DNA from: SAR202 cluster bacterium
GTDB taxonomy: Bacteria; Chloroflexota; Dehalococcoidia; Lucifugimonadales; GCA-2712585
NCBI GenBank assembly: GCA_016872285.1
Contig: VGZZ01000024.1
Span: forward strand, 1-40,892
DNA length: 40,892 nt
Reading direction: 5' to 3'
Both the position numbers and the translations under genes were made by a program. This document shows positions 6,967-35,880 of the stretch, piece by piece; the stretch's first letter is position 1; every line of letters starts with the position of its first letter. The notes below the pieces were generated by a model, which worked only from the letters and a program-made list of their open reading frames with translations, did not search any database and had not been told where the DNA came from.

Positions 6967-8664
6967 ATGAAAATGACAGGCGCGCAGATAGTCTTCGAGT
7001 CCCTCACCCGCGAGGGCGTCAACGTCATTTTCGGCATTCCAGGCGGCGCCATTCTCCCCCTCTACCAGACCCTCCCCGAATATCCCAACCTCCGACACAT
7101 CCTCACCCGCCACGAGCAGGGCGCCGCCCACGCCGCCGACGGCTACGCACGAGTCACCGGCAAGGTCGGCGTCGCCTTCGGCACCTCCGGCCCCGGCGCC
7201 ACCAACCTGGTCACCGGCATCGCCTGCGCCCAGATGGACTCCATCCCCACCGTCTTCATCACCGGCCAGGTGGGCCGCGCCGCCATCGGCAAGGACGCCT
7301 TCCAGGAGACGGACATCGCCGGCATCACCCTCCCCATCACCAAGCACAACTACCTGGTCATGAACGCCTCCGAAATCGCCTACACCATCAAAGAGGCCTT
7401 CTACCTCGCCCGCACCGGCCGCCCCGGCCCTGTCCTGGTGGACATCCCCAAGGACGTCTTCGTCGAGCAGGCTGAGTTCGAATACCCCGAGACCGTCGAC
7501 CTGCCCCACTACAACGTCCAGCCCGCCATCAAGACCGAAGCCTTGAAGCAGGCCGCGGCGCTTATCAAGGACGCCAAGCGGCCCCTCATCCTGGCAGGCC
7601 ACGGCGTCATTATCTCCCACGCCTACAACGAGCTTCGCGAGCTGGCCGAAAAGACCGGCATCCCCGTTATCACCACCCTCCTGGGCATCTCCTCCTTCCC
7701 CAGCAATCACCCCCTCTGCGTCGGCATGCCCGGTATGCACGGCATGGCCTACGCCAGCCTCGCTATCGACGAGGCCGACTTGCTTCTAGGCCTCGGTATG
7801 CGCTTCGACGACCGCGTCACCGGCGACCTCAAGACCTTCGCCCCCAACGCCAAAATCATCCACGTGGAAGTCGACCCCTCGGAAATCAACAAGAATAAGC
7901 ACGCCACCGTCCCCCTGGTCGGCGACCTCAAGACCGTCCTGCAAAAGCTCCTGCCCCACGTCCAGCCCAAAACTCACCCCGACTGGGTCAAGCGCATCGA
8001 TGTGCTGAAGAAGGAGCATCCCCCTGTTCGCTCCATCGCCGCCAACGGCATGAGGCCACAAGCCATTCTCCAAACGCTGTCTAAGGAGACCAAAGGCCAG
8101 CACGTCATTGTCACCGGCGTCGGCCAGCACCAGATGTGGGCCGCCCAGCACTCCACCTTCGTCAACCCCAACAGCTTCATCACCTCCGGCGGCCTCGGGG
8201 CCATGGGCTTCGAAGTCCCCGCCGCCATGGGCGCCCAGGTGGGCCGCCCCGACGCCACCGTCTGGTCCATCTGCGGCGACGGCGGCTTCCAGATGACCAT
8301 GTCGGAGCTGGCCACCATCGTGGAAAACAATATCCCGGTCAAGTTCGCCATCTTCAACAACGGCTTCCTGGGCATGGTGAGACAGTGGCAGGACATCTTC
8401 TACAAAAAGAGCTACGTCGCCACCAACTATACCCGCAACCCGGACTTCGTGAAGCTGGCCGAGGCCTTCGGCATGCCCGGACGCCGCGTCGCCCGACAGG
8501 AGGACGTCCTCCCCGCCATCCGGGAGGCCATGGCTCACAACGGCCCCATGCTCCTCGACTTCATGATCCCCCAGGAAGAGAACGTCTTCCCCTTCATACC
8601 CGCCGGGCAGAGCACCGCCCAGTTGATGGAAGAACCCGTGGAGGACCTGGCCCATGGCGGCTGA
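6967..8664 (+). CDS. ilvB: Acetolactate synthase, large (catalytic) subunit
   Basis: 565-residue TPP enzyme that condenses two pyruvates to acetolactate (Val/Leu) or pyruvate with 2-ketobutyrate (Ile). The N-terminal PYR domain has FGIPGGAILPLY and the catalytic Glu50 in RHEQGAAHAADGYAR. The central domain resembles the FAD-binding domain of AHAS (GMRFDDRVTGDL). The C-terminal PP domain has the metal/TPP signature beginning GDGGFQMTMSEL at about residue 437 and ending in the FNN motif. ATG 6967 follows a weak ribosome-binding site. Its 3' end overlaps ilvN by 11 nt, so the subunits are translationally coupled. Transcription is controlled by the upstream T-box. Length and motifs are complete. 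Confidence 0.98.
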   Translation: MKMTGAQIVFESLTREGVNVIFGIPGGAILPLYQTLPEYPNLRHILTRHEQGAAHAADGYARVTGKVGVAFGTSGPGATNLVTGIACAQMDSIPTVFITGQVGRAAIGKDAFQETDIAGITLPITKHNYLVMNASEIAYTIKEAFYLARTGRPGPVLVDIPKDVFVEQAEFEYPETVDLPHYNVQPAIKTEALKQAAALIKDAKRPLILAGHGVIISHAYNELRELAEKTGIPVITTLLGISSFPSNHPLCVGMPGMHGMAYASLAIDEADLLLGLGMRFDDRVTGDLKTFAPNAKIIHVEVDPSEINKNKHATVPLVGDLKTVLQKLLPHVQPKTHPDWVKRIDVLKKEHPPVRSIAANGMRPQAILQTLSKETKGQHVIVTGVGQHQMWAAQHSTFVNPNSFITSGGLGAMGFEVPAAMGAQVGRPDATVWSICGDGGFQMTMSELATIVENNIPVKFAIFNNGFLGMVRQWQDIFYKKSYVATNYTRNPDFVKLAEAFGMPGRRVARQEDVLPAIREAMAHNGPMLLDFMIPQEENVFPFIPAGQSTAQLMEEPVEDLAHGG

Positions 8665-9184
8665 ATATAAGACCATCGTTTCCCTCGTCCGAGACCGGCC
8701 CGGCGTCCTCACCCGCATCGCCAGCATGTTCCGACGGCGCAACTTCAACATCATCAGCCTCGCCGTCGGCCAGTCCGAGACCAAGGGCCTATCCCGAATG
8801 ACCTTCGTCGTTGACGGCGACGACGCTACCATCGACCAGGTCATCAAGCAGCTCCGCAAGCTCATCGACGTGGTCTCTGTGGAGCCTATAGGCGATAGGA
8901 CTATGGTCGCCCGCGAGCTGGCCCTCATCCGGGTCACCGCCACCTCGGCCACCCGCTCGGAAATCACCCAGATCGCCGAAATCTTCCGCGCCAACGTCAT
9001 CGACGTCGCCCCCGACTCCCTCATCATCGAAGTCACCGGTGACGAGGACAAGGTCCAGTCCCTCAAAAGCCTCCTGGAGTCCTTCGGCGTCCGCGAAATG
9101 ATCCGCACCGGCCGAGTCGCCATGGAGCGCGGCCTCGCCCTGGACTCCCGCCGCAACGGCAAGACCACAATTCCTCAAGCCTAA
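8654..9184 (+). CDS. ilvN: Acetolactate synthase, small (regulatory) subunit
   Basis: 176 residues, the usual length of the long-form IlvN/IlvH. An N-terminal ACT domain (YKTIVSLVRDRPGVLTRIAS, then RRNFNIISLAVGQSETKGLS) binds valine for feedback inhibition and activates the catalytic subunit. The C-terminal ALS_ss_C domain has LALIRVTATSATRSEITQIA and DSLIIEVTGDEDKVQSL. ATG 8654 lies inside the last codons of ilvB (11-nt overlap), typical of coupled subunits. A 290-nt repeat-filled gap separates it from ilvC, which is read in the same direction. Confidence 0.97.
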   Translation: MAAEYKTIVSLVRDRPGVLTRIASMFRRRNFNIISLAVGQSETKGLSRMTFVVDGDDATIDQVIKQLRKLIDVVSVEPIGDRTMVARELALIRVTATSATRSEITQIAEIFRANVIDVAPDSLIIEVTGDEDKVQSLKSLLESFGVREMIRTGRVAMERGLALDSRRNGKTTIPQA

Positions 9185-9304
9185 GTTTTGTACTAAAATG
9201 TCCCTCGGCATATTAATCTCATCCCAATACGCCAACATATCTAGAACTCGAACCACTCGGGGCAGACCCCACCTCTCAAACGGGGGGTGTGAAATGTCTC
9301 CTCA

Positions 9305-9415
9305 GGTACCCCTTCTTCTCCTATTGCAAAGGAGAAGAAGGGGTTAGGGGATGATGAGGTGATCCTATTTTTCTCTTCCCCTTCCAGCAGGAAGGGGCCA
9401 GGGGATGGTATCCCG
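9305..9415. repeat. Tandem R-D + R-E repeats inside the ilv operon
   Basis: R-D at about 9310-9360 (arms CCCTTCTTCTCC and GGAGAAGAAGGG around TATTGCAAA, then GGATGATGAGGT). R-E at about 9374-9415 (arms CCCCTTCC/GGAAGGGG, then CAGGGGATGG). They lie between ilvN and ilvC and could attenuate readthrough into ilvC or stabilise mRNA ends. The rest of the gap 9185-9474 shows no gene. Confidence 0.75.
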
Positions 9416-9420
9416 ACTAA

Positions 9421-10473
<1,053 letters not shown>

Positions 10474-10599
10474 CCGCCTAAGCTAGCTCGATTACTTGGC
10501 TGAGCACCGAGTAACGGCCTAGGATGCTGGTCAAGACGTCTTCATCTCCCGGGAGTGATATTCTTACCTCTGCTCGGCGGGGTGAACAGGCGAGGGTGT

Positions 10600-10710
10600 G
10601 GTTCTCCCCCTTAGGCCTGGAAGGCGAAGGGGGAGTTAGAGGGGGTTGTGGTGTATCATTTTCCTTGCCCTTCCTGAAAGGAAGGGGACACAGGGGATGG
10701 TGGCCCCGCT
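10600..10710. repeat. Tandem R-F + R-E repeats
   Basis: R-F at about 10601-10656 (CTCCCCCTTAGGCCTGGAAG, then GCGAAGGGGGAG and the GGGGGTTGTGGTGTAT tail) and an R-E variant at 10665-10705. The 268-nt gap 10474-10741 otherwise contains only a -10-like TAAAAT at 10729-10734, 7 nt before the next ATG. Confidence 0.75.
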
Positions 10711-10741
10711 TAAATTAACGCCACATGCTAAAATAACGCCC

Positions 10742-11362
10742 ATGAACACCACCCCCATACCCGTCATCGTCTGGTACGATTACATCTGACCCTGGTGCTA
10801 CGTCGGCCTGGAACGGCTCGACAAGCTAGCCCTAGAATACAACATCTCCATCACCGGCCGCGCCTTCTTTCTCCGACCCGACATCCCCGAAGAAGGCCGC
10901 GTCCGCGACCCGCGACCCGGTGAGGAGGACGGCCAGCTCGCCGAGCCCCTCCGCACCTACGCCCAGCAAGCTGGCCTCGTCATGCGGCGGCCCAGCCTCA
11001 CCCCCTACACCATGTACTCCCAGGAAGCCACCCAGTACGCCCAGGAACACGGCAAGTTCAACGAATTCCATCACGCCGCCTACAAGGCCCTCTGGACCGA
11101 CGGCAAAAATCTCGCCGATTTCCAGATCCTTAAGGAAATCACCGAATCCTGCGGCCTCGACTGGCCTGAGCTAGAGCAACGCCTTAAGTCCGGCCACTAC
11201 CGAGGCATCATCCAGGCCCAACACCAGGAAGCCCTGGACCTCGGCGTCCACGCCATCCCCAGCTTCCTCATCGGCAAGTACGTCTTCTCCGGCGCCCACC
11301 CCTACGACTTCTTCAAACGCGTCACAGAAAAAGTCCTGGCGGAGCAGCAGGTCAGTCAGTAA
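10742..11362 (+). CDS. DsbA/FrnE-family thiol oxidoreductase, probable selenoprotein (UPWC active site)
   Basis: ATG 10742 opens a 207-codon frame to TAA 11360-11362, broken only by TGA at 10787-10789 (codon 16). Translation reads VIVWYDYI-U-PWCYVGLERL. In DsbA-like FrnE/2-hydroxychromene-2-carboxylate isomerase-type proteins this position is the first Cys of C-P-W-C, so TGA as selenocysteine gives a U-P-W-C redox centre. The rest is an uninterrupted thioredoxin fold with helical insert: GRAFFLRPDIPEEGR, MYSQEATQYAQEHGKFNEF, and the C-terminal GVHAIPSFLIGKYVFSGAHP with the conserved cis-Pro (IPS). A SECIS-like hairpin lies 12-33 nt after the TGA. There is no signal peptide, so it is cytoplasmic. 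No Shine-Dalgarno; a TAAAAT box ends 7 nt upstream, so it may be leaderless. The alternative is a pseudogene from one Cys-to-stop change. The conventional start at 10982 would lack the active site. Sec machinery is not in the window. Confidence 0.8.
10802..10822 (+). other. Candidate bacterial SECIS hairpin
   Basis: GUCG(10802-10805)-GCC(10806-10808) pairs with GGC(10815-10817)-[bulged U 10818]-CGAC(10819-10822). The apical loop UGGAAC (10809-10814) starts 20 nt after the UGA. Spacing, a G in the first two loop bases and a bulged U fit general bacterial SECIS rules (the bulge is on the 3' side here). It is embedded in coding sequence, as in bacteria. Confidence 0.55.
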
Positions 11363-11470: not shown

Positions 11471-11665
11471 CTCCTCTGGTACTCCCCCTTCGGCCTGGAA
11501 GAGCCTGTCCCGAGTATCCCTCGAGGGACGAAGGGGGAGCTAGACGCTGTCCTGAGTATGTCGAAGGAGGGGGTTCTGGTGTCTTTTTTCTCTTCCCCTT
11601 CCAGCAGGCTGTACTCAGTCCCGATGCAGTCGGGAAAGGGGCCAGGGGATGGTATTCTGATTAAA
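11471..11665. repeat. Composite R-F + R-E array carrying three separate hairpin insertions
   Basis: R-F begins near 11471. Compared with the intact copy at 16063-16125 it has extra units at 11502-11528 and 11545-11568. The following R-E (about 11594-11660) has an extra unit at 11609-11635 placed exactly between CCAGCAGG and AAGGGGCC. Each insert has a related frame (CTGTCC.GAGTA...TCGA.GGA type). The gap 11363-11728 has no gene. Confidence 0.75.
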
Positions 11666-15973: not shown

Positions 15974-16190
15974 CGTCATTTCGAGCGAAGTCGAGAAATC
16001 TCAACATGCCGTCCGCCACCATTACGCCACATCACACCAACCACGCCTCCCCTAACCCCTTCCCATCTGGTCCTCCCCCTTCGGCCTGGAAGGCGAAGGG
16101 GGAGTTAGAGGGGGTTGTGGTGTATTTTTATTCTTTCCCTCTTCTAAGAAAGGAGAAGAGGGACTAAGGGTGATGAGGTCGCCCCGAATA
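15974..16190. repeat. R-A, then tandem R-F + R-D
   Basis: R-A at 15974-16030 (GTCATTTCGAGCGAAGTCGAG, in two pieces, then AAATCTCAAC). An intact R-F at 16063-16125 can be used as the reference for interrupted copies. An R-D variant with a shortened loop (AAGAA) is at about 16134-16180. No gene in 15966-16235. Confidence 0.75.
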
Positions 16191-35747: not shown

Positions 35748-35880
35748 ATCTGGTACTCCCCCTTCGGCCTGAAAGGCGAAGGGGGAGCTAGAGGGGGTTG
35801 TGGTATATCTTTTTTTATTGTCCCTCTTCTCCCGACTACGGGAGAAGAGGGACAAAGGGTGATGAGGGCGCCCCGATTAA
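35748..35880. repeat. Tandem R-F + R-D repeats
   Basis: R-F at about 35748-35812 (CTCCCCCTTCGGCCTGAAAG, GCGAAGGGGGAG, GGGGGTTGTGGTATAT). R-D variant at 35820-35870, where the loop is CGACTAC instead of TATTGCAAA. The gap 35591-35908 separates convergent genes and contains nothing else. Confidence 0.75.

Follow-up and report, generated by a model that had tools for sequence, protein, structure and literature searches.

A predicted selenocysteine-containing FrnE-type oxidoreductase in a SAR202 cluster bacterium and its relatives in the Chloroflexota

A gene in a 40,892-nt stretch of DNA from a SAR202 cluster bacterium (the window; contig C24 of a 2.61-Mb assembly that is 95.6% complete) very probably specifies a FrnE-branch member of the DsbA family, a cytoplasmic selenol-disulfide oxidoreductase in which an in-frame UGA would be translated as selenocysteine (Sec) by SelB with the help of a hairpin. 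The UGA is interpreted as Sec because TGA and Cys codons alternate at this position among homologs, the genome holds the Sec machinery, codon form and machinery co-occur across genomes, the frame is under purifying selection and a SECIS-like hairpin lies past the codon. A preliminary description had proposed a selenoprotein form of an otherwise Cys-containing family, and the machinery, the TGA in relatives, a dN/dS of ~0.13 and the covarying hairpin all agree with that proposal.

The frame runs on the plus strand from ATG 10742-10744 to TAA 11360-11362 and specifies 206 residues including U16 (Table 1). When it was re-read, the TGA of codon 16 proved to be the sole stop inside it before the TAA, as the preliminary description had claimed. 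The translation runs MNTTPIPVIVWYDYI-U-PWCYVGLERLDK... with an active-site motif of VWYDYI-U-PWCYVG, and the TGA was found where it had been placed, at the first Cys of a DYICPWC motif (DYI-U-PWC). U16, C19 and C137 are the only Sec or Cys residues of the protein. Residues invariant in 29 homologs include D13, Y14, I15, position 16, P17, C19 and P173, and the downstream frame is intact up to and including the expected cis-Pro loop (HAIPSF, with the invariant Pro173). This loop packs on the active site in thioredoxin folds. The first table-11 start past the TGA is ATG 10982, which yields only 126 residues, so that standard gene calling would, as had been anticipated, begin there and drop the active site.

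Table 1. Coordinates in the window of the predicted selenoprotein gene and associated features.
Feature	Position	Strand	Basis
Selenoprotein CDS	10742..11362	+	206 aa, Sec codon 16; Pfam DSBA match; frame conserved in relatives
UGA (TGA) codon for predicted Sec, position 1 of U-P-W-C	10787..10789	+	Codon 16 across 115 homologous loci
Cys19 codon (TGC), putative resolving Cys of U-P-W-C	10796..10798	+	Invariant in 29 aligned homologs
SECIS-like hairpin	10802..10822	+	Fold of window; present in Sec loci, mostly absent in Cys loci
Truncated 126-aa ORF, false gene start	10982..11362	+	Table-11 call from ATG
Pro173 codon, cis-Pro loop HAIPSF	11258..11260	+	Invariant in 29 homologs

A match to Pfam DSBA (PF01323) covers residues 8-193 (105.4 bits against a gathering cut-off of 25.6, E 4.2e-30), and homology therefore spans both sides of the TGA. 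The closest PDB sequences in a sequence search were those of Deinococcus radiodurans FrnE (5cp1/5cnw, E ~2e-15). An AlphaFold model of the protein (pLDDT 94) was also compared by Foldseek, in which the best five matches were all FrnE with TM values of 0.83-0.85, followed by SCO1869, HCCA isomerase and YjbH. With FrnE nearest both by sequence (PDB) and by fold (Foldseek), the earlier DsbA/FrnE-like assignment holds, and the protein is predicted to be a DsbA/FrnE-type thioredoxin-fold oxidoreductase. Its likeness to D. radiodurans FrnE (DR_0659; 5cnw, 5cp1) lies in the fold, at ~24% identity, in the CPWC-type active site and in the lack of a signal peptide, none being visible in the first 15 residues (MNTTPIPVIVWYDYI), which suggests a cytoplasmic location. 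The two differ in that Sec replaces the first Cys in the SAR202 protein, and in that the 206-aa protein lacks the C-terminal extension of FrnE and its CX4C motif. This CX4C helps to recycle Deinococcus FrnE, and some other FrnE proteins are also without the tail (PMC8945050). In vitro the Deinococcus protein acts as a disulfide isomerase and reduces insulin, and its mutant is sensitive to cadmium and diamide (PMC8945050). Another seleno-thioredoxin-fold family, NCBIfam NF041057 (Rcas_1661 family thioredoxin-like (seleno)lipoprotein), gave a weak and partial match confined to the C-terminal half (42 bits against a cut-off of 190), but unlike that family the SAR202 protein shows no lipoprotein signal.

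Attempts to read codon 16 in relatives, which had been put forward as a check on the selenoprotein claim, showed that close relatives carry TGA and not TGC or TGT. Within the same family a homolog occurs in three of the six other genomes, each time with a single internal TGA. A sample of the class contained a homolog (E 1e-20 or better) in 134 of 393 genomes, and the codon could be read in 115 loci, a count that takes in the window and one duplicate contig: 82 had TGA, 23 TGC, 10 TGT and none any other codon. Taken with the Pfam match on either side of the TGA, this puts the frame well outside what chance would give. The homologs with a readable codon 16 span 25-64% identity; every locus above 39% is TGA, the Cys forms being more distant, and TGA is shared by relatives down to ~25%. 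Beyond the class, a phylum sample had TGA in frame in 54 of 58 genomes with strong matches, where the position of the TGA was left unread and the count for a few of the matches includes a second stop. A further scan of genome contigs added only two true homologs, from a Chloroflexota and a Dehalococcoidia MAG, which agrees with the phylum suggested in the preliminary description. Three genomes (G096, G076 and G364) hold both Sec and Cys copies of the family. The median dN/dS past the TGA was ~0.13 in 41 pairs of Sec loci, and the eight codons just before the TGA showed few or no amino-acid changes in such pairs; to judge from these alignments the frame is maintained as one putative protein on both sides of the TGA by purifying selection. 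The presence of TGA in close relatives together with this dN/dS argues against both an error of sequencing and decay of the gene.

The Sec machinery is present in the genome itself. Of the components by which the preliminary description would have its claim judged, all four were found: a tRNA-Sec (76 bits against a cut-off of 47, with anticodon TCA according to ARAGORN) and, in a family search of the genome, selA, selB and selD, each above its curated cut-off. The selD gene (L019 1501-2424, G000 contig C33) has its own single in-frame TGA in a GUASK motif, and the genome thus has at least one further selenoprotein gene. Codon form and machinery are also linked across genomes, where machinery was counted from tRNA-Sec at E 1e-10 or better or, if that was missing, from SelA. 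Among genomes with the Sec form (for ~27 of which TGA was inferred from the stop count with its position unread) 102 of 105 had tRNA-Sec or selA, the three without either being drafts of 72-90% completeness, whereas 18 of the 29 Cys-only genomes lacked both. The association gave a Fisher p of 4e-12 for the 105 and 29 genomes, a value that ignores kinship and, like the covariation test on the hairpin, overstates significance because relatives are not independent.

The hairpin past the UGA in the window has a 7-bp stem (GUCGGCC / GGC-U-CGAC, with one bulged U) and an apical loop of UGGAAC that begins at the 20th base past the UGA (19 nt between) and has G in second place. A 48-nt segment of the window folds at -15.6 kcal/mol. 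The window hairpin is only moderately stable relative to shuffles (z -1.0 to -1.4; codon-preserving p 0.04). A comparison of the segment after the UGA with versions of synonymous codons revealed a mean z of -1.23 for Sec loci, 94% of them below zero, against -0.32 for Cys loci and means from -0.34 to 0.20 over Cys loci and the other segments examined. Of the 82 Sec loci, 66 have a stem of at least seven pairs near +21/+22 and 78 have a G at +22; the corresponding numbers among the 33 Cys loci are 1 and 17. Across 73 different Sec sequences, 88% of the possible instances of the eight stem pairs are formed; the figure is 67% for Cys loci and 42-60% when the register is shifted. Compensatory changes were seen among Sec loci, with kinship ignored, at pair 18-28 (C-G, G-C, U-A and A-U) and pair 21-25 (G-C and C-G). 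Bacterial SECIS elements have been modelled as a loop of 3-9 nt with G in the first two positions, on a stem of 4-16 bp, 16-37 nt from the UGA (PMC13188914). The hairpin past the UGA fits this published model and is classed here as a predicted bacterial SECIS element.

Other explanations can be weighed against this body of evidence. That the TGA is a true stop in an ordinary Cys-type FrnE gene, one that has decayed to a pseudogene, acquired a point mutation or been misread in sequencing, is suggested by a lone TGA in a Cys-type motif one base removed from TGC or TGT, but is extremely improbable: the same TGA in relatives down to ~25% identity largely refutes it, and strong purifying selection on the frame, the lack of further frame damage and the Sec machinery in the genome also count against it. 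Readthrough of the UGA by a near-cognate tRNA, which would place Trp or Cys at position 16, has very little probability when set beside a complete Sec machinery, a TGA form that tracks the machinery across genomes and a hairpin that accompanies the TGA, even though UGA can be misread and Cys-form relatives exist. It is also unlikely that the protein is a selenoprotein but no disulfide oxidoreductase, that is a kappa-class GST/HCCA isomerase-like protein or a YjbH-like regulator. These share a fold family with it, and HCCA isomerase (2imd) and YjbH (6ghb) are among the matches, but U-P-W-C is kept, Cys19 is invariant and the closest protein in both sequence and fold is FrnE. Redox catalysis is also favoured by the replacement of a redox Cys with Sec.

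The reading as a cytoplasmic selenol-disulfide oxidoreductase is drawn from FrnE as nearest relative, the invariant residues, the absence of a signal peptide and the activities of the Deinococcus protein. On this reading a ribosome would arrive at the UGA of codon 16, where SelB carrying selenocysteyl-tRNA would recognise the hairpin starting ~12 nt past the UGA and insert Sec, after which translation would run on to the TAA. Incorporation of Sec at codon 16 is thus a prediction from sequence comparison. The attacking nucleophile in the folded protein would be Sec16, located at the N-terminal end of helix 1 in the thioredoxin fold, and the mixed selenide-sulfide would then be resolved by Cys19. 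Reductase or isomerase chemistry may be expected of the Sec protein by analogy with FrnE, and the protein probably contributes to thiol redox homeostasis. The thioredoxin system as a recycling partner is a guess, since the protein is without the C-terminal CX4C.

The ilvB-ilvN-ilvC genes lie directly upstream (window 6967-10741), and ilvC is the gene before the Sec gene here and also in L025, the nearest relative. In L025 (1300-1465) the Sec gene begins 1 nt past the stop codon of ilvC; in the window there is a 268-nt spacer, including a copy of the repeat described below, between the two genes. A conserved operon was considered and rejected: flanking ORFs of 35 loci were clustered and no real common neighbour was found in more than six, so that gene order names no partner. 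On the plus strand neither a sigma-70 promoter nor a terminator for the Sec gene was found, and no clear Shine-Dalgarno sequence was seen 5' of ATG 10742. The sequence TAAAAT at 10729-10734, seven bases 5' of the ATG, may serve as the -10 box for a leaderless transcript. Interspersed palindromic REP-like elements starting with CTCCCCCTTCGGCCTGGAAG occur in the window at 10599-10674, 11477-11602, 16073-16092 and 35756-35775, with copies on both sides of the selenoprotein gene; the 2.6-Mb genome has 94 matches with at most two mismatches, against none for a reversed control.

A tree of 114 class members, read without a fixed root, requires 14 or more switches between Sec and Cys in either direction, eight of them forced by well-supported branches. 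The 28 rows of the well-supported clade to which the window belongs are without exception Sec, more members are Sec than Cys, and Sec is the form in most of the sampled Chloroflexota genomes that have a homolog. There is an even chance that Sec FrnE is the old and usual form in the Chloroflexota, across many families and beyond the class, and that Cys forms have evolved repeatedly, in many cases together with a loss of the Sec machinery.

DsbA-like selenoproteins with a UxxC motif were reported from the Sargasso Sea in 2005 (PMC1088965), as 'DsbA 1' selenoproteins from the GOS data in 2008 (PMC2398784), from 41 organisms in a genome survey (PMC5029168) and, most recently, as 'DsbA-like protein form 1' (UxxC) in the table of a 2026 review (PMC13188914). 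DsbA-like form 1 (PF01323 / COG2761) resembles the present protein in Pfam family, in the UxxC position of Sec and in a predicted bacterial SECIS, a likeness of description rather than of alignment (PMC1088965, PMC2398784, PMC13188914). As DsbA-like UxxC Sec proteins have been reported since 2005, the protein joins an already known selenoprotein family. However, no literature placing the DsbA-like Sec family in the Chloroflexota or in SAR202 was found in the openly accessible main texts searched, nor anything relevant pairing FrnE with selenoprotein, and the spread of Sec FrnE through the Chloroflexota is apparently a large undescribed branch. No NCBIfam 20.0 model scores above its cut-off on the Sec protein, and automatic annotation therefore likely truncates Sec FrnE genes, with loss of the active site. 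With the present analysis a known selenoprotein family gains a strongly supported member and a large Chloroflexota branch, and the mixture of Sec and Cys members, together with a hairpin linked to the Sec form, is a good natural system in which to study the switch between Sec and Cys in bacteria.
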